Positions 1,474 through 63,620 of a DNA stretch of 64,000 nt are shown here, piece after piece; position 1 is the stretch's first letter, and each line of letters begins with the position of its first letter. Source of the DNA: Desulfosoma sp. (lineage in GTDB: Bacteria > Desulfobacterota > Syntrophobacteria > Syntrophobacterales > DSM-9756); NCBI GenBank assembly GCA_037481875.1, contig JBBFKY010000011.1:1-64000 (forward strand). The letters run 5' to 3'. Below the pieces are notes generated by a model. The model was not told the DNA's origin. It did no database searches and saw only the letters and a list, made by a program, of their open reading frames with translations. The translations under genes were made by a program, and so were the position numbers.

Positions 1474-1947
1474 TCAACGGATGCACTCAGGGTAACGCCA
1501 CTGAGTGGATACGGGATTTGCTGTTGAATCCAAGGGGTAGAAGCCAAGGCACGTCGAAGCACACGGCGTTGTGCTTTCAGTTTGCCGGCGGGATCGGTGG
1601 CGCTTTTCCAACATTTTTTGGCAGTCGATGCAAAGCCGTGCTGTAGGCTGAACGACCAGGCGCTCCGGGTTGATGGGATCACCACAGTTGTCGCAGAAAC
1701 CGTAGTCGCCGTCTCGAAGCCGTTTGAGAGCGTTTTCCACTTCCCAGTACAGCTGCCGGTATCGATTACGTACTCGTTGCAGGGTTTCCCTTTGGTGTTC
1801 CAGAAGAGCCACATCAGCTTCGTCCATGGGTTCGCCGTGGCATGTGTGCTCCTCTTCAGCACCTCTCAGGGACTCCAAAGACCGGATCAAATTCTCTCGA
1901 GCACTGTGGAGCAAGGCTTCAAAACGTTTCTTGGTGAACAGATCCAT
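1474..1947 (-). CDS. dksA: DksA/TraR-family RNA polymerase-binding regulator
   Basis: DksA-type proteins enter the RNA polymerase secondary channel and, with ppGpp, adjust initiation. The 157-residue product has an N-terminal helical hairpin with the coiled-coil tip motif DxxDxA (D42, D45, A47) and a four-cysteine zinc finger C85-x2-C88-x17-C106-x2-C109, the same spacing as E. coli DksA. About 48 residues after the finger are Ser/Thr/Arg-rich and unlike the usual short end. A good ribosome site, AAAGGAGG, precedes the ATG. Its start lies inside the 3' end of phnL (29 bp overlap), so it probably shares the phn transcript. Confidence 0.9.
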   Translation of the reverse strand: MDLFTKKRFEALLHSARENLIRSLESLRGAEEEHTCHGEPMDEADVALLEHQRETLQRVRNRYRQLYWEVENALKRLRDGDYGFCDNCGDPINPERLVVQPTARLCIDCQKMLEKRHRSRRQTESTTPCASTCLGFYPLDSTANPVSTQWRYPECIR

Positions 1948-2692
1948 GGAAACCTCCTTTGTTTTCTTCCTTTTGGGGTAAAGTTATGGAGTCTAGGGGG
2001 ACAACACGATTCGCTGCTTCCCTTTGAACCAGCGGGTCGTGATAAACGCCAAGGATGGCCGCGCCTTTGTCCCGAGCCTCATGAATGAGCGAAAGGACGA
2101 TTTCTCGGTTTCTTGGGTCCAAAGACGCCGTTGGTTCATCCAAAAGCAGAATGGGGTAGCCGCAGACAAAGACACGAGCGATATTCACACGCTGCTGCTC
2201 CCCTCCCGAAAAGGTGGTGGGAGAAAGTTTCCAGAGTTTGCGGGCAATACCCAGTCGGTCTAGAAGCATCGCGGCACGCTCCAGAGCCTCCTTTTCCGGA
2301 ACACCTTGGCTGAGCAGAGGCTCCATCACCACATCGAGCGTGGATACTCTTGGAATAACGCGAAGAAATTGGCTCACATACCCGATGGCATGGCGACGAA
2401 GATGCAAAACGGTCCAGGGATCGGCTTCGGCCATGTCGATGACCTCGTTTCCATATCGAATAAAGACTCGACCTTTTTGCACGGCGTAGTTTCCGTAAAC
2501 CATGCGCAAAAGGGTGCTCTTTCCGACACCTGAAGGGCCGTTGACGGCCACGCTTTCTCCCTGGAAAACCTGCAGATCCACGTCGGACAAAACTGAAAGG
2601 CGAACACCGCCCTGGGTATGCAGCGTAAAGGATTTTGTGGCTTTTTCTAAACGGATCATCCACGGACGTGACATGGAATTCCGGGCTCCCAT
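1919..2692 (-). CDS. phnL: Phosphonate C-P lyase system ATPase PhnL
   Basis: PhnL is an ABC-type ATPase associated with the C-P lyase core complex. Visible are the Walker A sequence GPSGVGKST, the signature SGGEQQRVNIAR, and Walker B ILLLDEPTASLD. The length of 257 residues exceeds the usual 226 or so because of a short N-terminal extension and a C-terminal tail. I chose the ATG at 2692 because it overlaps the phnK stop as TGATG; the ATG at 2674 (MSRPWMIRLEK) is the alternative and would give a more typical N-terminus. Confidence 0.93.
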   Translation of the reverse strand: MGARNSMSRPWMIRLEKATKSFTLHTQGGVRLSVLSDVDLQVFQGESVAVNGPSGVGKSTLLRMVYGNYAVQKGRVFIRYGNEVIDMAEADPWTVLHLRRHAIGYVSQFLRVIPRVSTLDVVMEPLLSQGVPEKEALERAAMLLDRLGIARKLWKLSPTTFSGGEQQRVNIARVFVCGYPILLLDEPTASLDPRNREIVLSLIHEARDKGAAILGVYHDPLVQREAANRVVPLDSITLPQKEENKGGFHGSVHQETF

Positions 2693-3585
2693 CACGCTGT
2701 AAGGCGCGAAGCTACCAGCAGTTGGGTGTAAGGATGTTGCGGGTCGTCCAAGATGCGGTCCATGAGTCCTTGTTCCACGACCTGTCCACGCACCATGACC
2801 ATGAGGCGGTGGGCCAGGACACGAGCCACCGCCAAGTCGTGGGTGACCATAACCACGGACAACTTCAACTCCCGAACAAGACGTCGCATCACATCGAGAA
2901 AACGGGCTTGAACGGACACATCCAAGCCACTTGTGGGCTCGTCGAGGAACACAATTCGTGGGTTCGAGGCCAAATTTTTCGCAATTTGGAGACGCTGTAA
3001 CATGCCGCCTGAATAGGTCCCTGGAGGGTCGTCCACACGATCGACGTCCAACTCGACCCGTTCCATCCACCAGCAGGCTGTTCGGCGTAACTGGGAATAA
3101 CGGCGCTCTCCTTCCGCCAAAAGCCGCTCCGAGATGTTTCCACCGGCGCTTACGTGCATGCGAAGACCTTCTTGAGGATTTTGGAACACTACGCCGATGG
3201 CGGTTCGAAGCAACCGTCGGCGTAAACTATTGTCGATTTGGTAGAGATCCAACCATTCTTGGTGATGCCGATAAAGAACCTGTCCCTTGGTGGGAACCTG
3301 GAGCCCGCACAGGCATCGAAGTAGCGTGCTTTTCCCCGAACCCGACTCCCCCACCACGGCTAACACCTCTCCGGGCATGACTTCCACATCCACGTCTTGA
3401 CATCCAACTCGACCCCCATAAAGGTGTGTAAGATTCCGAGCTTGAAGAATCGGTTCGAAGTCGTGAATCTCGGGACGGCCGTCTCCGTTTATGGGTTTTT
3501 CTTTCTCTTCTGAAAACCTCATGGAAGCTTCAAAGGGGACACGTGATTTTTTTGCTTCAGATGCCATGAGCCCGTCCCTGGTCAT
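2692..3585 (-). CDS. phnK: Phosphonate C-P lyase system ATPase PhnK
   Basis: PhnK is the ABC-type ATPase that docks on the PhnJ subunit of the C-P lyase core. Walker A is GESGSGKST, the signature is YSGGMLQRLQIAKNLA, Walker B is IVFLDEPTSGLD, and the end DPQHPYTQLL is typical of oligopeptide/PhnK-type ATPases. The product has 297 residues, about 40 more than usual, because of a charged N-terminal leader before PILQARNLTHLYGG. The start codon directly follows the phnJ stop (TGA ATG). A shorter protein from a later Met is possible. Confidence 0.94.
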   Translation of the reverse strand: MTRDGLMASEAKKSRVPFEASMRFSEEKEKPINGDGRPEIHDFEPILQARNLTHLYGGRVGCQDVDVEVMPGEVLAVVGESGSGKSTLLRCLCGLQVPTKGQVLYRHHQEWLDLYQIDNSLRRRLLRTAIGVVFQNPQEGLRMHVSAGGNISERLLAEGERRYSQLRRTACWWMERVELDVDRVDDPPGTYSGGMLQRLQIAKNLASNPRIVFLDEPTSGLDVSVQARFLDVMRRLVRELKLSVVMVTHDLAVARVLAHRLMVMVRGQVVEQGLMDRILDDPQHPYTQLLVASRLTA

Positions 3586-4510: not shown

Positions 4511-5632
4511 CTAAGTTTTGGGAAGCTTTGGCTGTGGCTGTGAGACCTTCGAGGCGTGGCGGTTCGTTGCAGGGAAACCCCGCACGTGGCACAGTTCAGC
4601 CTGAAAATCCACGTAATGAGGTAATTTCAAGTGTTGCACAAACCCTGAAGCTTCCACGTTGTCTCCATGTCTTAGAACGAATTCTTCATCTTGCGCCGGG
4701 TAGCGCACTTCCTCGCCCAGTTCCCTAGCTCGAAGCGCTCGATCCACCAGGGCCATGGCCATGGCCTTTCTTTCATTGGCACCAAAAACCAGCCCATAGC
4801 CTTGGACGAAACCGGGAGAACCATTAGGAAGGTGATCGCAACGGTTGAGCATGACACATTCCGTGACCAAAATCTGCCCCACTTGAACACAAAAACCCAC
4901 CTCAGGTAGCTCGACTTCGATGAGCACATAGCCCATGCGGATTTCTCCCACGAATGGATGGTTTTGAAAGCCGAACCCCCTCTGAGCCGAGTAGGCGATA
5001 CCCACGAGAAAGCCTTCGTCGGCTCTGGCAAGGCTTTGCAGACGGGCGCTTCGCGGGGCTGGAAAACTCAAGGTTTCTTGCGTGATGTCTCTAGGGGCCT
5101 CCTCGGTGTTTGAGCTTTCTTCGACGAGCCCCTCTTTTCTAAGAAGGTCGGTAACTTTAGGAGTATGCGAGTCCGGCGGCTGACAATGTTTTGCCAAATA
5201 CACGACATTTTCAGGAACGGCCTTGGGTTCCAGCAAAGAGAAATCCAAAAGTCGATGGGTGTAGTCGAACGTGGAGCCGAGAACCTGTCCGCCCGGCAAA
5301 TCTTTGAAAGCAGCGGAGATGCGTCGAACAAATCGCATGGTGTTCGTTTCCACCGGCTCGGACGTGCCTAGCCGAGGCAAGGTGGTACGATAGGCTCGAA
5401 GCAGGAAAACCGCTTCCGTAAGGTCCCCTTGAGCCTGTTTGATGGCCAAAGCGGCAAGTTCTCGATCATACAAGGATCCTTCCGCAATCACTCTGTCCAC
5501 GGCCAGACTCAGTTGTTCCTGAATCTGCTTGACCTCTATTTCAGGGATGCGAATATCCCCTCGCCGTTTTTCTGCAAGAAGGCGATGGGCGTTGGCGATG
5601 GCTCGTTCGCCTCCTTTTACCGCAACGTACAT
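4511..5632 (-). CDS. phnI: C-P lyase core subunit PhnI
   Basis: PhnI, with PhnG, PhnH and PhnL, attaches phosphonate to ribose by displacing adenine from ATP. The start at 5632 gives MYVAVKGGERAIANAH, the expected PhnI N-terminus, and a 373-residue protein. The longer frame upstream runs back into phnH. Further PhnI-like stretches are FVRRISAAFKDLPGGQVLGSTFDYTHRLLDF (seen as consecutive motifs) and the C-terminal HVDNVEASGFVQHLKLPHY-type segment (here HGDNVEASGFVQHLKLPHY). It overlaps the end of phnH by 16 bp and ends 10 bp before phnJ. Confidence 0.96.
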   Translation of the reverse strand: MYVAVKGGERAIANAHRLLAEKRRGDIRIPEIEVKQIQEQLSLAVDRVIAEGSLYDRELAALAIKQAQGDLTEAVFLLRAYRTTLPRLGTSEPVETNTMRFVRRISAAFKDLPGGQVLGSTFDYTHRLLDFSLLEPKAVPENVVYLAKHCQPPDSHTPKVTDLLRKEGLVEESSNTEEAPRDITQETLSFPAPRSARLQSLARADEGFLVGIAYSAQRGFGFQNHPFVGEIRMGYVLIEVELPEVGFCVQVGQILVTECVMLNRCDHLPNGSPGFVQGYGLVFGANERKAMAMALVDRALRARELGEEVRYPAQDEEFVLRHGDNVEASGFVQHLKLPHYVDFQAELCHVRGFPATNRHASKVSQPQPKLPKT

Positions 5633-6279
5633 GAGACTCCTTTCGCCGGTGTTAGACAGACAGAACGAGGAATGCACACCAAGGAGTTTCCCTCGGTCAA
5701 GAAGAGGTCCACTCCTCGAGGATAAACGTGCTCCAACCCCAATCTCCATTCCCAAAAATGGAAAGGACACCCTTGAAGCGTGACTTTCGATGTCTCAGGA
5801 ATGCCAGGACCCGAAAGCATAAACACAGATTCAGCTGAACTCGGTTCGGAAATGCTCATAGAAGAAACCTGCATAATGATGGATGCACCACGTTCGGGTT
5901 CCAGCTCGGTTCCGATGCAAAAGCGGTAAGGAGGCTTCAACTGCGAGGGTTGCGTGACAAGGATAAAGTCGGCCGATTCGGGATCGGGTACCATGGAAAC
6001 GTGGCAAAATTGTTGAGCTGCCCGACAAGCCTCGTGATTCCTGGGGAGATCCATCCATAGGCGGACCGAGGAGTCTCCCAAGGTGAGCAGGATGACCCAG
6101 GCGGCCGGATTTATTCCATGAGGAACCGTGGGCGGTGCTTTCAAGGATGTGCGTCGTCCGGGATAGGCCATGGCATGGAGAATGGTTCGAAAGGCCTCTT
6201 GGCTTTCGAAAACGGGATCGGCAAAACCCATCGCAGCCCACGTTTGAGCCTTCCATTCAAAAGACGGTGTCGACATCAT
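5617..6279 (-). CDS. phnH: C-P lyase core subunit PhnH
   Basis: PhnH is the dimeric subunit of the C-P lyase core complex. The 220-residue product has the characteristic FADPVFESQEAFRTILHAMAYPG-type N-terminus (visible in motifs FADPVF and FRTILHAMAYPGR), the central LTLGDSSVRLW segment and a C-terminal YPRGVDLFLT stretch. The start ATG overlaps the phnG stop as ATGA, so translation is probably coupled. Length and order are normal for the family. Confidence 0.95.
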   Translation of the reverse strand: MMSTPSFEWKAQTWAAMGFADPVFESQEAFRTILHAMAYPGRRTSLKAPPTVPHGINPAAWVILLTLGDSSVRLWMDLPRNHEACRAAQQFCHVSMVPDPESADFILVTQPSQLKPPYRFCIGTELEPERGASIIMQVSSMSISEPSSAESVFMLSGPGIPETSKVTLQGCPFHFWEWRLGLEHVYPRGVDLFLTEGNSLVCIPRSVCLTPAKGVSCTLR

Positions 6280-6746
6280 TCCCCTCGCACCATGGTCATG
6301 AAATCCACTCGTGTGGATGCCACACGAACGGCCTCACGTCGTTCGGCTTCGTGCCGGCGTTTTGCGAGCGGTTCCACCAGGGTTTCCATAAGATGGGAAT
6401 TCTTCGAGGAATCTTGAAGCTCTGCATCAAGCACAGCGGCGATTTCCGCATGACGGGGACGTCGTCCGAGAATCATGGAGACGCCCACCGTGCCTTGTCT
6501 AAGGGCCACGACACATTTGGTCACGGTGACTTCGCCTAAGAAAAATCGGCCGTTGCGATTTTCCGTGCAAGCTTGCACCATGACCAGACCGGTATCCGGA
6601 CCCTGAAGGATCGTGTAATCGGGCTTGTTAGGGTAGCGTTCCCAAAAAGCAAGGACGTCTTCCGAGTCCGCTTGAGCCAGGACGCTCATCCATCGACGGC
6701 GTTTTTCGATTCTATCTTTGGGGGGTACCAAAGGCGTTGGACCCAT
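6276..6746 (-). CDS. phnG: C-P lyase core subunit PhnG
   Basis: PhnG is the small subunit of the core complex. The 156-residue product reads RRRWMSVLAQADSEDV near its start, then the family block GRFFLGEVTVTKCVVAL and IILGRRP-like SMILGRRPRHAEIAAVLDA. Length is normal. It follows the permease gene phnE by 11 bp and overlaps phnH, marking the point where the transporter genes give way to the lyase genes. Confidence 0.95.
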   Translation of the reverse strand: MGPTPLVPPKDRIEKRRRWMSVLAQADSEDVLAFWERYPNKPDYTILQGPDTGLVMVQACTENRNGRFFLGEVTVTKCVVALRQGTVGVSMILGRRPRHAEIAAVLDAELQDSSKNSHLMETLVEPLAKRRHEAERREAVRVASTRVDFMTMVRGE

Positions 6747-6757
6747 GAATCTTCCTT

Positions 6758-7864
6758 TTAGATAAATCGAGCTCGTATTTTAGAACAGAGAGTATCCAAG
6801 ACCGTAACGCTCACAATCACCATAATCATCATGGTGGCGACGTCTCTGTACTGGTAGCTGTTGATCTTGTCGAACATGAGAAAGCCGATGCCTCCAGCGC
6901 CACAGAAACCAAGGATGGTGGCACTGCGCACGTTGGATTCGAATCGCAAAAGACTGTAGCTTACGATCAAGGGCATCACCTGAGGCAAAATGGCAAAGGA
7001 CATCACCTGCAACGGGCCCGCTCCTGTTGCCGACACCGCTTCCACTTGACCCGGGTCCACTGCTTCAATGCCCTCACTGATGACTTTACCTATGATTCCA
7101 AAAGTATGAATGGCAAGAGCCATAATCCCGGCAAAGGGCCCGAGACCGATCACGGCGACAAAGACCAGGGCCATGACGAACTCGTTGAATCCCCGACAGA
7201 AGTCCAAAAGGCGGCGGGTCAAAAAAAGGCATAGGAAACGAAGTGTTCTGTACAAAAGGCCGTCTCCGGGAAAGAGGATTTCCAGGCCGTTTCGAGCCGC
7301 CAGAAAGGAAGCGGGAATAGCCCAAAGAACCGCAAGCAAAGTTCCCCAAATGGCAATGGCCACTGTTTCCACAAGAGATTTGAAATAGTCTTTGATGTTG
7401 GAAAGGTTTGTCTGAGGCGGAAAAAAACCGCCCCTTTTTTCTTCGAGAATGCGCCGGAACTCTTTCTCCACCCTGGCTAGGCGTTCCTGCTCAGGAAGCG
7501 AGGCCAACCGTTTTTCCGCCAGCATGAGAGCTTCTTGTTGCAAGGCCTCAGGAGACCTGGTCATGCCGGTTTTTTGACTGTCTTCCTTTAGGTCTTGAAG
7601 GGTTTCCTGAATCATCGTAATTCGAAGCATGCGCTCGGCCTGAGTCCTTGCCGCCTGCAGCTCCTCTTCGGTCAATGTGCGCCCGAAGAGGTATTTCCAA
7701 GCATTGTGCCGTTTTTCCCAAAGTTTCATCGGACTTATGCCTGTCCACACATAGGTGGTTCCCAGCACGACCAGGGTTAAAAGGATCGCTGCGCTCCGCT
7801 TGAATCCTTTCCACGAGAAAAAGAATAACGAAGCGGAGGAAAACGACGGGTTTTTGACATCCAT
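6758..7864 (-). CDS. phnE: Phosphonate ABC transporter permease PhnE with a large insert
   Basis: PhnE forms the membrane channel of the phosphonate importer. The C-terminal 210 residues are a standard permease with the coupling-loop region EGIEAVDPGQVEAVSATGAGPLQVM and the end segment YRDVATMMIMVIVSVTVLD. I take ATG 7864 (MDVKNPSFSS) as start because GGAGA lies 11 nt ahead; the frame is open to 7990. Unusual is a charged, helix-rich segment of about 110 residues between the first membrane helix (about residues 20-40) and the permease domain, rich in Glu/Arg/Leu. The protein is 368 residues, against about 260-300 in the family. Confidence 0.9.
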   Translation of the reverse strand: MDVKNPSFSSASLFFFSWKGFKRSAAILLTLVVLGTTYVWTGISPMKLWEKRHNAWKYLFGRTLTEEELQAARTQAERMLRITMIQETLQDLKEDSQKTGMTRSPEALQQEALMLAEKRLASLPEQERLARVEKEFRRILEEKRGGFFPPQTNLSNIKDYFKSLVETVAIAIWGTLLAVLWAIPASFLAARNGLEILFPGDGLLYRTLRFLCLFLTRRLLDFCRGFNEFVMALVFVAVIGLGPFAGIMALAIHTFGIIGKVISEGIEAVDPGQVEAVSATGAGPLQVMSFAILPQVMPLIVSYSLLRFESNVRSATILGFCGAGGIGFLMFDKINSYQYRDVATMMIMVIVSVTVLDTLCSKIRARFI

Positions 7865-8016
7865 GATGGAATTGGTCTCCGGGTTTTTCTTCCTCGACGC
7901 TGAAGAGCTAGAAGTTTGTTCGAAAGCTCTGGTAAAGCGGGTCCGGGCGATCTGAGTACGCACGGCTCTCTGGCTACCGTGGCTCTGCAATGCTCAAAGA
8001 AACCCTTATCTTGGAA

Positions 8017-8091: not shown

Positions 8092-8982
8092 CTAGGAAGC
8101 CTGCGCCAACTGCTTTTTGAGCTGGTTCAAATATCGAATGACGTCGTAGACCGTATCGTCAGAGGGGGCGTAGCCTCCTATCTGAAGCTTTTCCAAGCCG
8201 GCTTTGTCGGCGTTAAACATCATCAGAGCCCCGGTAAAGGCGGCTTTCAGACTTTCAGGGAGATCCTTTCTGGCACACATGGGGGATCCGGGAATGAGTT
8301 CGGATTTCCACAATACGGTAAAGTCGTCCCAAGAAACTTGGCCTTTTTCGCTCATTCGGTTGAGATCGATGGTATTGGTGGCGGCGACGTCAATGCTCCC
8401 GGTCTTCACTGCAAGAATGCTTGCTCCGTGGGATCCCGAGAACTTTACTTCTTTAAAGTATTGCTTGGGATCGACTTTGAGGTCTCGATAAAAAAGAAGG
8501 TTTGGAACGAGGTATCCCGAGGTGGAGTTGGGATCGGTGAAGGCGAAGACTTTTCCCTTGGCATCTTCAAGTTTTTCGATGCCGGAGCCCCTTTTAGCTA
8601 TAATAACCCCATAATAACCGGGTTCGCCGGATGTGTCTTTTTCCATGGCTAGAGCGACGGCTCCGGCTTTTTCGGAAGCTTCCACGTAACTCTTAGGGCC
8701 GAGATAAGCGAAGTCGATGTGTTTATGGGCCATGGCTGTAATCACGCCGGCATAATCAGAGGCGCTTTGGGCTTCCACCTTAACACCAAGGGTTTTTTCC
8801 AAATGGGTGATCAACGGTTCGAAACGCTTGACGATGTCGGCACCGCCTTCTGTCGGTATCAGGCCGATCTTGATTGTTTTCGGCCACGTTCCAGGATCGG
8901 CGGCTGCCTGACCGGCATACAAAGACCCCACGAAAGCCATGAACGCAATGCTCAGAAGCCACAATTTTCTGAAAGTTTTCAT
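8092..8982 (-). CDS. phnD: Phosphonate-binding periplasmic protein PhnD
   Basis: PhnD captures phosphonates for the PhnCE transporter. The start at 8982 (MKTFRKLWLLSIAFMAFVG) has GGGAGG 8 nt upstream and gives a clean signal peptide ending near GQAAADP. The mature part begins TIKIGLIPTEGGADIVKRFEP, followed by SASDYAGVITAMAHKHIDFAYLGP and FTDPNSTSGYLVPN, all typical of the family. Length is 296 residues. It sits between phnC and phnE and is separated from each by an untranslated stretch (40 and 227 bp). Confidence 0.95.
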   Translation of the reverse strand: MKTFRKLWLLSIAFMAFVGSLYAGQAAADPGTWPKTIKIGLIPTEGGADIVKRFEPLITHLEKTLGVKVEAQSASDYAGVITAMAHKHIDFAYLGPKSYVEASEKAGAVALAMEKDTSGEPGYYGVIIAKRGSGIEKLEDAKGKVFAFTDPNSTSGYLVPNLLFYRDLKVDPKQYFKEVKFSGSHGASILAVKTGSIDVAATNTIDLNRMSEKGQVSWDDFTVLWKSELIPGSPMCARKDLPESLKAAFTGALMMFNADKAGLEKLQIGGYAPSDDTVYDVIRYLNQLKKQLAQAS

Positions 8983-9022
8983 GTGTTTCCTCCCTAGTTT
9001 TGATATGTTGATAAAAAGCTTT

Positions 9023-9853
9023 TCAGGCACAGGCTACGGCGCCTTCATTGGTAAGAGCGGATTTTCCGTGGTACACCTCAGTCACCGTTTCATTGGTCAA
9101 GAGGGTTGCGGGTCCATCGAACACGACGCGTCCTTGCCTCATGCCCAAGACCCTTTTGGCGTAGCGTTTTACAAATTCCAGATGATGGAGGTTCACGACG
9201 ACGGGAATGCCTCTTTTTTCGTGGATTTCTCGAAGAAGACCCATGACCAGCGCGGCGCTTTTAGGGTCCAGACTGGCGATGGGTTCGTCGGCCAGAATGA
9301 CATCCGGTTCCTGAGCCAGCACACGGGCGATGGCCACACGTTGCTGTTGACCTCCGGAGAGGTGGCTGGCTCTTTGAAAAGCCAAATCCGCGATGCCCAC
9401 TTCGGCCAAGCAATGAAGCGCGTATTCTTTTTCTTTCTTCGAAAAGAATCGTCCCAAGGAAAGAGTGTGAAGGACCGGTGAGGTTTGAAAACGCAAGCGG
9501 CCGGCAAGCACGTTTTCCAAAACGGAAAGACGAGGAACCAGATGAAACTGCTGAAAAATCATGCCGACTTTTTGCCGAACCCTCTGCAAGGCACCACCGG
9601 AGACGTCGGTAATATCTTCTCCCAGAAGCATGATGCGCCCGGATGTGGGTTTCAGCAGTCTGTTGAGGCATCGCAGCAGAGTGGATTTTCCCGCCCCGGA
9701 ACAGCCGATAATCACGAGAAAATCGTCGTCGCGCAGATCAAAAGAGACCCCGTCGACCGCGAGGGTTCCTGAAGGGTATCGTTTGACTAAATCCTGAACG
9801 CGAAGCACAGGTTCCGCTCTGAGAGGCCCTAAAAGAGAGGCTGCATTCTCCAT
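9023..9853 (-). CDS. phnC: Phosphonate ABC transporter ATPase PhnC
   Basis: PhnC powers phosphonate import. Walker A is GCSGAGKST, the Q-loop region is QKVGMIFQQFHLVPRLSVLENVLAGRL (family-specific), the signature LSGGQQQRVAIARVLAQ, and Walker B VILADEPIASLDPKSA. The PhnC-type SLGRFF segment after the Q-loop is present. I start at ATG 9853 (MENAASLLG), preceded by AAGGAG at 8 nt, giving 276 residues. The start lies 25 bp inside the 3' end of phnM. Confidence 0.95.
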   Translation of the reverse strand: MENAASLLGPLRAEPVLRVQDLVKRYPSGTLAVDGVSFDLRDDDFLVIIGCSGAGKSTLLRCLNRLLKPTSGRIMLLGEDITDVSGGALQRVRQKVGMIFQQFHLVPRLSVLENVLAGRLRFQTSPVLHTLSLGRFFSKKEKEYALHCLAEVGIADLAFQRASHLSGGQQQRVAIARVLAQEPDVILADEPIASLDPKSAALVMGLLREIHEKRGIPVVVNLHHLEFVKRYAKRVLGMRQGRVVFDGPATLLTNETVTEVYHGKSALTNEGAVACA

Positions 9854-11085
9854 GATGATGACTCCTTGTCTTGAATGATGACGTTTTTTTGGCTCGTATC
9901 TTGACGCCAAAGGCATCCATGAGAAGATGGGCGGCTTTCATAAACAAGCCTTCCGCCGACCCAAAGTTGGGAGGGACGCACCCATGGAGATGCAATGTTC
10001 ACGACGGCGAGATCGGCGGAAAAACCCGGCTTAAGGGCTCCGAAGACATCGAAATGTTTTAACAACCGTGCTGGGTTTGAGGTCACGTGAGTCAGAGCCG
10101 ACTCTAGTGGAATGCAACCCAGGTGAGCCAGGATAAAGGGGGCTTGGATCAGACATTCCGGATAGTAATCGCTGACGAGAATATCCGTCAGTCCTTGAGA
10201 GACGGCTTTGCGGGCGCTCAGATTGTTGTTCGACGAGGATCCTCGCACAACGTTCGGGGCTCCCATAAGCACGGCCATGTTTCGACGACGAGCCTCCTCG
10301 GCCGCATCCAAGGAAATGGGAAATTCACAGCCGACGGCTCCCAGGCTGTGAACAAGAGATACCTTTTCGCGGTTGTCATCGTCATGGCTTAGAAGCGGCA
10401 CACCGCAACGACGTATCGTTTCGGTCAGTTGCAGAACGTCATGCCAGGCCCGATCCCTTCTGTGGATTTTTGAAGCAGCCATGGCCGCGGTCTGCGAAGA
10501 GGTGAGTTTGTACGTGCCGGCATAATACCGGTGGTAGGCCTCATAAGTGCGGAATTGTCCTTGGCCCGGTGTGTGGTCCATGATGGAAGCCACATCCACG
10601 TAACCGCATTCCAAAAGCTCTTCGAAAATGGCTCGAGCCTTCTCGGAACCCACCTCAAACCGAGCGTGCACAAGATGTCGGACGGAGGCTTCGCCGGATG
10701 CGCTGAAGGCCTTGATCCTTCGGACCGTTTCGGCGGCCTTGTGCGGAGACCGAAGCCCCAACTCATTGTCGGCAAAGCTTACGGCATGACAGAAAGTGCT
10801 GATCCCGCAGGCCGCCAGTCTTCGATCCAGGGCTTCCATAGCAAATCCCGGATCAAAATCCACGCCGGGACGCATCTCGATGCATTTTTCCAAGACATCC
10901 GAATGAAGATCCACCAAGCCTGGGAGAATAAGGGCTCCGCGGACGTCGATGGAATGGACTTTCTCGGTAGGAATGGTCCCCGAGGACCTTACTTCCAGAA
11001 TGCCGGTTTCATCAAAGATTACGGCCCCTTGTTCATGAAGCCGTTCACCGTCGAACACGGGACCACCGAAGAGACAGATTTTCAT
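9829..11085 (-). CDS. phnM: Alpha-D-ribose 1-methylphosphonate 5-triphosphate diphosphatase PhnM
   Basis: PhnM removes pyrophosphate from the ribosyl-phosphonate triphosphate made by PhnGHIL. The product (418 residues from ATG 11085, MKICLFGGPVFDGERL) is an amidohydrolase-fold protein with the metal motif LPGLVDLHSDVLEK, a FCHAVSFAD block, SIMDHTPGQGQFR, and LLSHDDDN. AGGAGA lies upstream, and the start overlaps the GNAT gene stop as ATGA. Late PhnM landmarks YYPECLIQAPF and HVTSNPARLL are also visible. Confidence 0.95.
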   Translation of the reverse strand: MKICLFGGPVFDGERLHEQGAVIFDETGILEVRSSGTIPTEKVHSIDVRGALILPGLVDLHSDVLEKCIEMRPGVDFDPGFAMEALDRRLAACGISTFCHAVSFADNELGLRSPHKAAETVRRIKAFSASGEASVRHLVHARFEVGSEKARAIFEELLECGYVDVASIMDHTPGQGQFRTYEAYHRYYAGTYKLTSSQTAAMAASKIHRRDRAWHDVLQLTETIRRCGVPLLSHDDDNREKVSLVHSLGAVGCEFPISLDAAEEARRRNMAVLMGAPNVVRGSSSNNNLSARKAVSQGLTDILVSDYYPECLIQAPFILAHLGCIPLESALTHVTSNPARLLKHFDVFGALKPGFSADLAVVNIASPWVRPSQLWVGGRLVYESRPSSHGCLWRQDTSQKNVIIQDKESSSWRMQPLF

Positions 11086-11594
11086 AGGCTGTCTCCTGAA
11101 CTCTTCAAGGTCGACTGTCGAGTCTCTTTCGGGGCTTCGCTTGCCCCTTGAAAAAAATCCAGGCGGTAGACCCACGAGTCAGCCTTGCGAAACCCCGCTT
11201 TTTCGTAAAACCCGCGTTGGGCACTGAGACGGTTTTGGCTGGTGAGCACTTCAAGTCGGACCGACCCACAGGTGCGAGCGTGTTCCAGGGCATGGGCAAT
11301 GAGAGTGTGACCGATACCTTGGCCGCGCCAATCCTGGTGCACGACAAGTTCCTCGATGGAGACCTGCAGTCCCCCAAGGCGCAGGCAGGTGGTGGTGCGA
11401 AGGGTCATCATACCCACCACCTGGCCGTTAGGCTTCCAAACGGCGAGAAGACAGCGGTATTCTGAATTCTGGAGAAGAGAAGGCAGAGCCTGGCGCACTT
11501 TTTCCAAGGGCGTCGAATATCCCAAATGAGAGAGAAGCTCATGGATAAAGGGAAAATCGGTCGATTCGGCCTGTCGAACCATAATGTTGCTCAC
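11082..11594 (-). CDS. GNAT acetyltransferase, PhnO-like, first gene of the phn operon
   Basis: A 170-residue GNAT protein. The acetyl-CoA loop is VHQDWRGQGIGHTLIAHALEHA, preceded by the beta strand VSIEELVV and followed by LEVLTSQNRLSAQRGFYEKAGF, the usual late GNAT block. PhnO enzymes N-acetylate aminoalkylphosphonates. The ATGA overlap with phnM and its place directly behind the Pho-box-like site argue for that role here, but sequence alone cannot separate PhnO from other GNATs, so I leave the symbol empty. Confidence 0.8.
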   Translation of the reverse strand: MSNIMVRQAESTDFPFIHELLSHLGYSTPLEKVRQALPSLLQNSEYRCLLAVWKPNGQVVGMMTLRTTTCLRLGGLQVSIEELVVHQDWRGQGIGHTLIAHALEHARTCGSVRLEVLTSQNRLSAQRGFYEKAGFRKADSWVYRLDFFQGASEAPKETRQSTLKSSGDSL

Positions 11595-11671
11595 GGTTTT
11601 GTTTCCCGGTTTCTACTCGTTTGTACGTCGGTTGGTGTTCACTCCATCGTTCGCTTCTGAAAACCGCGGCC

Positions 11672-11728
11672 ATTAAAAAACCCTTTGTGTGACACGAACA
11701 TGACCCTGGTGTTAAGAATTGATGACAG
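11672..11728 (-). promoter_or_regulatory. Predicted PhoB-type promoter of the phn operon
   Basis: Read on the minus strand, four 7-nt half-sites start exactly 11 nt apart: CTGTCAT (11728-11722), TCTTAAC (11717-11711), GGGTCAT (11706-11700) and GTGTCAC (11695-11689). The Pho-box half-site is CTGTMAY, so they match at 7, 4, 5 and 5 of 7 positions. A -10-like TTTAAT follows at 11677-11672, 11 nt after the last half-site, as in class I Pho promoters. The first start codon is about 78 nt further on. Periodicity and placement are what make it convincing; regulator binding is inferred. Nothing else is seen from 11729 to 11970. Confidence 0.6.
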
Positions 11729-11970
11729 GATCGGCGATAAAAGCGGAATGTCCTGATTCGCGGAAATCTCGAGGTCTTTCGGGGTCACCGGCGGCGATAC
11801 CTTGGGCGGAACATGAACCGGTGGATCCCCGGGTGGCCGCGGGCGAAATTTGGCCAGAGGTCGAAGGATCACTTGGGGCCTCTTTGACCCCCGACAACCA
11901 GAGCTCCAACGAACCCGTGCCTCAAATTGGGGCCTAACCCGGGACGTTTTGGGCCCTGGCTGAGACACTA

Positions 11971-12006
11971 AACAAAAAGGGGTTAGGCCGTAAGACCTAA
12001 CCCCTT
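11971..12006 (-). terminator. Rho-independent terminator after tRNA-Thr
   Basis: AAGGGGTTAGG (11977-11987) and CCTAACCCCTT (11996-12006) form an 11-bp perfect stem with an 8-nt loop. On the minus strand the stem is followed by TTTTTGTTT, so it ends transcription from the tRNA-Thr gene that stops 7 nt before it. Confidence 0.85.
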
Positions 12007-12013
12007 GATTTTC

Positions 12014-12088
12014 TGGAGCCGGCGATGGGATTCGAACCCGCGACCTGCTGATTACGAATCAGCTGCTCTACCCCTGAGCTACGCCGGC
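12014..12088 (-). tRNA. tRNA-Thr (anticodon CGT)
   Basis: A 75-nt cloverleaf with encoded CCA. The acceptor stem is GCCGGCG/CGCCGGC, the D-arm GCTC-AGGGGTA-GAGC, the anticodon arm GCTGA-TTCGTAA-TCAGC giving anticodon CGT, and the T-loop is TTCGAAT. The T-stem has a weak C-A pair. Together with the terminator directly downstream it forms a free-standing unit. Confidence 0.95.
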
Positions 12089-12248
12089 CTGAGAAGCGGC
12101 AAGCCTTATAGCACGCGGGTTTTTGGACGGTCAAGGTCAATCTCAAGGAGTCCAAAGGACTTGCCATGCTTCAAGACAAAAGCGTGGAACCCCAAAAAAG
12201 TTTTCGGAAAAGGCCCTTTCCTTTGAAGCGCACGCGTCGTGGGTGCCC

Positions 12249-12274
12249 AAAAAGCGGCCCGAAGGCCGCCGCTT
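12249..12274 (-). terminator. Probable terminator beyond ridA
   Basis: On the minus strand the sequence AAGCGGC, a GC-rich loop, GCCGCTT is followed by TTTGG. It is 172 bp past the ridA stop with no gene between, so it most likely ends that transcript. The rest of 12089-12445 shows no gene. Confidence 0.5.
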
Positions 12275-12445
12275 CAAAATAAAACCGTCGTATTGAGACG
12301 TAAGGACTCGGCGCGTCCTGTCCCTGCCTTTTGACATGACACTGGCTGGAATGGCTCCCTGAGGATTTCCGAAAAGCCTCGCGGGGGTCCGCTCCAAAAC
12401 GGACGTTGCTTTTGAGGCGACAGAAGCGTCAGGCTGATGGTCCCC

Positions 12446-12829
12446 TCAGGTTTTGAAAGCCACACATTTCATTTCAATATGGGCGCCTCGAGGCAGAGCG
12501 CTCACTTGCACTACGGCGCGAGCCGGCTTGTGGTTTCCAAAAGCTTGTTCGTAGATGGTGTTAAAGGTTTGAAAGTTGGCGAGATCGGTCAAGAAGACAT
12601 CCACCGCCACCACATTGTTCATGACATACCCTGCGGCTTCCAGAACCTTTTCCACATTGTGCAGCACTTGGCGAGCCTGAAGGTCAAAGGCGCCTTCCAC
12701 CAGCCGCCCCGTTTCGGGATCTAACGGAATTTGGCCGCTTACAAAAAGCCAGGGGCCGGCTTGGACGGCTTGACTGTAAGGGCCGATGGCCGCAGGGGCT
12801 TTTTCTGTGTGCACGAAATGCAAAGACAT
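12446..12829 (-). CDS. ridA: RidA-family enamine/imine deaminase
   Basis: RidA hydrolyses reactive 2-aminoacrylate and other enamine intermediates released by PLP enzymes. The product from ATG 12829 has 127 residues and the full family pattern: APAAIGPYSQAVQAGPWLFVSGQIPLDP in motifs, GAFDLQARQVLHNVEKVLEAAG, FNTIYEQAF and the active-site region PARAVVQVSALPRGAHIEM with the conserved Arg. GGGGAG precedes the start. The frame is open further upstream, but that part has no family similarity. Confidence 0.95.
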   Translation of the reverse strand: MSLHFVHTEKAPAAIGPYSQAVQAGPWLFVSGQIPLDPETGRLVEGAFDLQARQVLHNVEKVLEAAGYVMNNVVAVDVFLTDLANFQTFNTIYEQAFGNHKPARAVVQVSALPRGAHIEMKCVAFKT

Positions 12830-62960: not shown

Positions 62961-63620
62961 TTAAGGTTCGCAGCGGTGCTTGATGTTTACCCCTTGAACG
63001 ATAAAAATGACGCTTTCGGCGATATTGGTGGTCTGATCTGCCACCCTCTCCAAACACCGTGCCGTGATGATGGTTTGCACAGCCCTTTCAATGCTTCGGC
63101 TTTCGTTGACCATAAGATCGATCATACGCCTTAACACCTTGTCGTTAAGCTCATCGGCTTCATCGTCCATTTGGCAGACATCGTAGGCTCGGGTTACGTT
63201 TTCATGGGCGAAAGCACTGATGGCCACCCGCAACATGTCCATGGCCGTGTCCGCCAGGGCATCCAATTCAGGAAGAAAATCAAGTGGCGGCCTTCGGGCC
63301 AGGAATTGAGCCCTTTGCGCGATATTGACCGCCTGATCGGCGATGCGCTCCAGATCAATACTCATGCGCAGGGCTCCAATGATGAACCTGAGATCCTTGG
63401 CCACAGGCTGTTCCAAGGCCAGCAGGGAAAGGCACAGATGGTCAACTTTCATCTCCAGCTGATTCACAATCTGGTCTTCGGCGATGACCTGGGCGGCGAG
63501 CTCTTCATCCCGAGTCTTAAAGGCCTGCAGGGCTTTTTCCATGGCTTTTTCCGTCAGGGTCGCCATTTCAAGGACCGTCATTCTCAGTTCTTCCATCTGC
63601 CGAATAAACCGTGATTTCAT
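62961..63620 (-). CDS. phoU: Phosphate signalling protein PhoU
   Basis: PhoU links the Pst phosphate transporter to the PhoR kinase. The 219-residue product has two PhoU helical repeats: MKSRFIRQMEELRMTVLEMATLTEKAMEKAL-type start (as EELRMTVLEMATL), DLRFIIGALRMSIDLERIADQAVNIA and VQTIITARCLERVADQTTNIAESVIFI (E-R-x2-D-x4-I metal motifs). Length is normal. It lies just after the kinase gene. Confidence 0.95.
   Translation of the reverse strand: MKSRFIRQMEELRMTVLEMATLTEKAMEKALQAFKTRDEELAAQVIAEDQIVNQLEMKVDHLCLSLLALEQPVAKDLRFIIGALRMSIDLERIADQAVNIAQRAQFLARRPPLDFLPELDALADTAMDMLRVAISAFAHENVTRAYDVCQMDDEADELNDKVLRRMIDLMVNESRSIERAVQTIITARCLERVADQTTNIAESVIFIVQGVNIKHRCEP

Follow-up and report, generated by a model that had tools for sequence, protein, structure and literature searches.

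A predicted PhoB-activated promoter precedes the C-P lyase genes of a Desulfosoma-type sulfate reducer

Four Pho-type half-sites at exact 11-nt steps, followed by a -10-like hexamer, were found before the phn (C-P lyase) cluster in a window of 64,000 nt (the whole stretch of DNA that was analyzed; positions are those of the window unless the contig is named). Judged from its sequence, the array very probably serves as the activator site of a class I-type Pho promoter, through which PhoB would activate GNAT-phnMCDEGHIJKL. The phn genes are very probably controlled by the standard phosphate starvation regulator, because the four evenly spaced half-sites resemble those before the organism's own phosphate uptake genes. 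The original prediction of a Pho-type promoter was supported by a match to the motif of the organism's own phoB and pst genes, by retention of the phase in five other genomes and by the presence of Pho genes on the same contig.

RESULTS

The phn cluster and its surroundings

The window most likely derives from a Desulfosoma-type sulfate reducer. The nearest PhnM sequences were those of an uncultured Desulfosoma (66% identity) and of Desulfacinum (55 to 59%). The genes of the cluster, in the order of transcription, were as follows.

11082-11594, minus strand: GNAT acetyltransferase, first gene (phnO-like); Acetyltransf_1, 59.6 bits
9829-11175, minus strand: phnM; NF011990, 347.2 bits (cutoff, 233)
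9023-9916, minus strand: phnC; TIGR02315, 306.8 bits (cutoff, 266.1)
8092-9030, minus strand: phnD; TIGR03431, 330.1 bits (cutoff, 261.1)
6758-7990, minus strand: phnE; TIGR01097, 244.6 bits (cutoff, 216.7)
6276-6746, minus strand: phnG; TIGR03293, 158.7 bits (cutoff, 89)
5617-6279, minus strand: phnH; TIGR03292, 163 bits (cutoff, 91.5)
4511-5770, minus strand: phnI; PF05861, 521.3 bits
3586-4500, minus strand: phnJ; PF06007, 474.7 bits
2692-3585, minus strand: phnK-type ABC ATPase; ABC_tran, named from its position
1919-3070, minus strand: phnL-type ABC ATPase; ABC_tran at residues 161-315, named from its position

The cluster contained phnG, phnH, phnI, and phnJ together with the transporter genes phnCDE and phnM, the gene set by which a C-P lyase operon was recognized. 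The top NCBIfam match of the GNAT gene was aminoalkylphosphonate N-acetyltransferase, at 44.5 bits and below the cutoff of 142. The phnL-type open reading frame (ORF) as listed probably extends 5' beyond the true gene. A gene for a DksA/TraR-type C4 zinc finger protein (1474-1947, minus strand) lay directly after the last phn gene and may be part of the phn operon. Two features were located upstream of the phn promoter.

12014-12088, minus strand: tRNA-Thr(CGT)
11977-12006, minus strand: hairpin resembling an intrinsic terminator, 13 pairs, between tRNA-Thr and the phn promoter

Four terminator-like sites were detected in 1.5 kb, compared with 2.3 expected from shuffled sequences, and the hairpin at 11977-12006 had the most pairs of the four.

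The half-site array and the -10-like hexamer

Direct reading of the minus strand gave CTGTCAT-CAAT-TCTTAAC-ACCA-GGGTCAT-GTTC-GTGTCAC-ACAAAGGGTTT-TTTAAT, with the following elements.

11722-11728, minus strand: half-site 1, CTGTCAT
11711-11717, minus strand: half-site 2, TCTTAAC, weak
11700-11706, minus strand: half-site 3, GGGTCAT
11689-11695, minus strand: half-site 4, GTGTCAC
11672-11677, minus strand: -10-like hexamer TTTAAT, 11 nt past half-site 4, 5 of 6 positions matching TATAAT

The original prediction had placed four half-sites at strict 11-bp spacing, starting at 11728, 11717, 11706, and 11695, and all four heptamers were present there on the minus strand, forming direct 11-nt units at exact steps as in a Pho box. 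Half-site 2 matched CTGTCAT at 2 of 7 positions. A -10-like TTTAAT at the class I distance had also been proposed; the hexamer was found at 11677-11672, but it was separated from the array by 11 nt and not 10. The hexamers 16, 17, and 18 nt before TTTAAT (GTTCGT, TGTTCG, and ATGTTC) matched the -35 consensus TTGACA at only 1, 2, and 2 of 6 positions, as expected of an activator-dependent promoter.

The array exceeds chance expectation

A half-site matrix was built by pooling 13 arrays, each directed at phoB or pst and taken from this genome or a relative; no phn site was included. The phn site ranked first in the window with a score of 23.5 bits, the best nonoverlapping place reached 2.2, and none of 200 windows simulated from dinucleotide frequencies reached 23.5 (maximum, 17.1). 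An earlier matrix of 14 arrays, left after two near-duplicates had been dropped from 16, gave the phn site 24.1 bits (rank 1 of 127,922), and 0 of 150 simulated windows scored as high. One of these 14 arrays had been taken for a second phoB promoter and was rejected as such, the family search showing a receiver-kinase hybrid gene instead; without this array, the window was tested anew and the 80 loci described below were counted again, and the outcome held. The half-site of the 14-array matrix favored a final C (GTCAC). Around the phn site, only period 11 of periods 8 to 15 scored high with this matrix (periods 8 to 10 and 12 to 15, ≤ -2.1), a preference that is built into the matrix because the training arrays came from an 11-nt pattern search; the phn bases themselves did not enter the matrix. 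These results confirmed that the array lies above chance expectation.

The motif is shared with phoB and pst

Genomes were searched with a pattern of four GTCAY half-sites at 11-nt steps, allowing up to 3 mismatches, with the reversed pattern as the control. The organism's own genome (3.40 Mb) gave 6 matches at 5 distinct places and no match to the reversed pattern. Three of the 5 places were phn (2 mismatches), phoB (2 mismatches; 3 on the other strand), and pst (3 mismatches), so that phoB and pst, the organism's known Pho genes, made up 2 of the 4 places other than phn. The best -10 hexamer of the pst promoter lay 10 nt from its array. The remaining two places (C2:373489 and C14:72695), with 3 mismatches each, were regarded as likely chance matches; their ORFs had no Pfam match and a glycosyltransferase match, respectively.

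Across 21 genomes, 67 matches were obtained versus 14 with the reversed pattern, and for the 8 genomes of the family the figures were 44 versus 4, sums in which both-strand and shifted matches of one array are counted separately. At least one match was present in 15 of the 21 genomes. Arrays before both phoB and pst were detected in 6 of the 8 family genomes, G003 having the phoB array only and G005 neither. When a -10 hexamer at 10 nt was added to the pattern and at most 2 mismatches were allowed, 17 matches were found at 16 places (one array matched twice) in 6 of the 8 genomes; the reversed control of this search gave 0 in the 8 genomes.

The Pho regulatory genes

The Pho genes were found on the same contig, at and beyond the end of the window.

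62961-63620, minus strand: phoU, complete in the window; TIGR02135, 206.4 bits (cutoff, 130.25)
63644-65590 of the contig (63644-64000 in the window), minus strand: phoR-type kinase gene; PnpS, 321 of 400; PhoR, 274.1 of 334.2
65449-66306 of the contig, beyond the window, minus strand: phoB; TIGR02154, 265.9 bits, cutoff of 296.2 not reached
66501-71346 of the contig, beyond the window, divergent from phoU-phoR-phoB: pstC, pstA, pstS, and pstB (pstCASB), from the family search

A phoU/phoR-type pair had been proposed for the window. This was correct for phoU; only the 3' 357 nt of the kinase gene are inside, since the gene runs from 63644 to 65590. PhoU, PstC, PstA, and PstB exceeded their curated cutoffs, and PstS was below its own (166.4 of 206.6). 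Despite the missed cutoff, TIGR02154 was still the best NCBIfam match of PhoB, and 2 of 14 control genomes pass this cutoff. The gene lies beside phoR, phoU, and pst, the synteny by which phoB was recognized.

When the effector domain was aligned to structure 1GXP, the helix of PhoB read RTVDTHIRRLR, compared with RTVDVHIRRLR in E. coli PhoB. T194, V197, R201, and R219 are described as contacting bases (PMC3264566). T194, R201, and R219 were kept here, and V197 was replaced by Thr. The same RTVDTH was present in the PhoB genes of seven loci of relatives (L103, L105, L133, L134, L139, L140, and L142).

Conservation before phn in relatives

The 11-bp phase was retained before GNAT-phnM in G002 (contig L002), a genome of the window's own genus, in G001 (L137), and in loci L003, L004, and L005. 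With the window included, all 6 of the aligned Desulfosoma/Desulfacinum-type genomes had a phn operon preceded by an array in Pho box phase. The half-sites were TCGTCAC/ATTTCAC/GGGTCAT/ACGTCAC in L002 and TCGTCAC/TTGTCAT/GGGACGT/CTGTCAC in G001. In the alignment of the six orthologues, no invariant stretch near the promoter was longer than those in half-sites 1 and 4: GTCA was invariant in half-site 1, with a final T in the window and C in the other five, and GTCACA was invariant at half-site 4. Half-site 2 was in phase and degenerate in the relatives, and half-site 3 (GGGTCAT) was identical in L002. In the three Desulfacinum loci, half-sites 1 and 4 were kept and half-sites 2 and 3 were degenerate, with the phase unchanged. 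A -10 hexamer stood at the aligned place (TTCAAT in L002 and TTGAAT in G001) with a 10-nt gap, and this was the position of the best hexamer in 5 of 5 orthologues. The two loci that came next in PhnM identity, L006 and L007, lacked the array, scoring 1.5 and 5.6 bits with the 13-array matrix.

Among 80 phnM loci, 24 exceeded 10 bits versus 9 with the reversed matrix, and the number above the highest control was 12 with the 14-array matrix and 9 with the 13-array matrix. In the 24 loci, which were chosen by the 14-array matrix with the -10 not used in the choice, mean matches to TATAAT peaked at a 10-nt gap (3.25), with 2.25 at 11 nt and 1.04 to 1.96 at 14 other gaps (4 to 19 nt); the 9 reversed-matrix control loci also peaked at 10 nt (mean, 2.22; range, 1.22 to 2.22). 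Family searches covered 11 of the ORFs downstream of these 24 arrays, and 4 more were the GNAT genes of L002 to L005. PhnG followed the array in five loci (L010, L011, L012, L016, and L018), PhnC scoring over its cutoff did so in three (L067, L069, and L071), and a PstS-like binding protein (Pfam PBP_like_2) did so in another three (L025, L043, and L058). The eight phnG or phnC loci with an array belong to other, more distant lineages.

Alternative explanations

A fortuitous repeat without function was considered. The plain E. coli consensus CTGTCAT gave the phn site as the single best of the window at 19 of 28; because at least 19 was also reached in 34 of 150 simulations, this consensus alone is not significant. 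With the 13-array matrix, wrong periods elsewhere in the window scored up to 19.8 (period 15), 17.2 (period 6), and 15.6 (period 12). Such a repeat would, however, have to keep its phase in five other genomes, lead the window in a matrix test built without phn, and coincide with phoB and pst in the genome-wide search, which makes chance extremely improbable. Binding of the 11-bp repeats by a different OmpR-family response regulator must be considered as well. Members of this family bind direct repeats as a class (PMC3264566), and the genome encodes one more full-length regulator of the OmpR type at C10:84370-85068, with a kinase-like ORF after it. However, the phoB and pst promoters carry the same half-sites as phn. 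Moreover, although 70 matches to the PhoB model were found in the genome, the DNA-binding part was covered only by PhoB and by the C10 regulator, whose helix, RSLDVHVSNLR, when aligned by eye, has no Arg at the place of R201. Control by a regulator other than PhoB is accordingly very unlikely.

Somewhat greater weight was given to a promoter that PhoB binds but that is weak or unresponsive because its -10 is 1 nt more distant than it should be, the operon being expressed mainly from elsewhere; we consider this unlikely. The distance from the Pho box to the -10 is 10 bp in E. coli (PMC1906773), and it was 10 nt in all five orthologues. PhoB-dependent promoters have strict spacing requirements, and many PhoB sites are inert (PMC10294691). 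The spacer between the array and TTTAAT (11678-11688, minus strand) exceeded that of the five orthologues by one base, the difference falling within a T run, and it seems that one base was added within this run. On the other hand, TANNNT was present at 11 nt in 3 of the 24 high-scoring phnM loci, compared with 5 of 24 at 10 nt. A promoter scan of 11000-12500 detected no other sigma-70-like site, a result that says little, since the scan requires A at -10 position 2, so that TTTAAT is invisible to it, and only 0.4 sites were expected by chance.

Proposed activation by PhoB

The PhoR kinase phosphorylates PhoB under phosphate scarcity. Once phosphorylated, PhoB occupies repeats of this kind in head-to-tail order and recruits sigma-70 polymerase (PMC4415409, PMC10294691). 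For activation of the phn promoter by PhoB, we propose that the phosphorylated protein would occupy the four 11-bp half-sites from 11728 to 11689 head to tail, probably as two dimers, and would recruit sigma-70 RNA polymerase to the -10 hexamer at 11677-11672, replacing the -35 element. Transcription would start near 11665, and GNAT-phnMCDEGHIJKL would be read as one transcript, allowing phosphonates to be imported and cleaved as a phosphorus source.

DISCUSSION

The predicted phn promoter of the window is a clear but ordinary case of a known control system, and the understanding of the Pho system is unchanged by it. A Pho box is built of direct 11-nt repeats, in each of which 7 nucleotides are conserved and the other 4 are less so, the E. 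coli unit being CTGTCAT (PMC4415409). Both E. coli and Caulobacter have phn under the control of PhoB (PMC10294691), and PhoB sites have already been described for a sulfate reducer (PMC3333781). The E. coli phnC-P promoter likewise has a PhoB box before a C-P lyase operon, and its site, ATTAACCAAATCGTCACA, resembles that of the window in joining a TTAAC half-site to a GTCAC half-site (PMC10294691). Unlike in E. coli, GNAT and phnM come first in the window's cluster, and no phnF-type regulator was found among the 12 cluster ORFs scanned in the window.

The E. coli pstS promoter has four Pho box repeats. As in the window, these are direct repeats of 7 + 4 nt (PMC4415409); the window differs in its 11-nt gap to the -10 and in the preference of its group for GTCAC over CTGTCAT. 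Desulfovibrio vulgaris, also a sulfate reducer, has a PhoB (DVU1083) for which DAP-chip gave the motif (c/t)GT(n)AC, repeated with a 4-bp spacer (PMC3333781); neither phn nor phosphonate appears as a word in the main text of that study. Tandem Pho boxes were predicted before C-P lyase operons for cyanobacterial SphR (PMC1906773), which differs in its half-site, CTTAACCT, and belongs to a different phylum. A C-P lyase cluster is described in Desulfotignum phosphitoxidans, and the parts of that report drawn on here do not mention a Pho box in connection with it (PMC4046663). Searches of the open-license literature found nothing on Desulfosoma and phosphonate, Desulfacinum and PhoB, or Deltaproteobacteria C-P lyase and the Pho box. 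With arrays before phn operons, phosphonate use under phosphate starvation becomes directly testable in anaerobic sulfate reducers.

A broader reading can be offered as a tentative suggestion, with the balance of probability against it. The Pho code may have shifted together with its regulator in this branch of sulfate reducers, with Thr for Val197 and with GTCAC half-sites, and the arrays before phn (in relatives also before an arsenate reductase paralogue and a PhoB-like hybrid kinase) may make phosphonate use, and perhaps arsenate defense, part of the core starvation response.

Other Pho-type arrays in relatives

Four-half-site arrays were also observed upstream of an arsenate reductase-like paralogue (CVHNSGRS motif, Pfam LMWPc) at L130 (G002:C8:19867-20288), L138 (G005:C1:1238333-1238791), and L129 (G003:C340:3653-4291), with 1, 1, and 3 mismatches in G002, G005, and G003, respectively. 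A stricter three-half-site expression was passed by the G002 gene only (1 of the 3 CVHNSGRS genes). It was passed by none of the 7 CTGNSCRS-type genes scanned, which were all but one (L168) of the 8, and these 7 had no match in the four-half-site search either. The entry of arsenate through Pst would be consistent with control of an arsenate reductase by PhoB. A further Pho-type array was present at L132 (G002:C11:26376-26429) before a hybrid ORF (L132:1714-3261, minus strand), whose product matched a PhoB-like receiver, HisKA, HATPase, and a second receiver in the family search and is possibly a kinase under Pho control.
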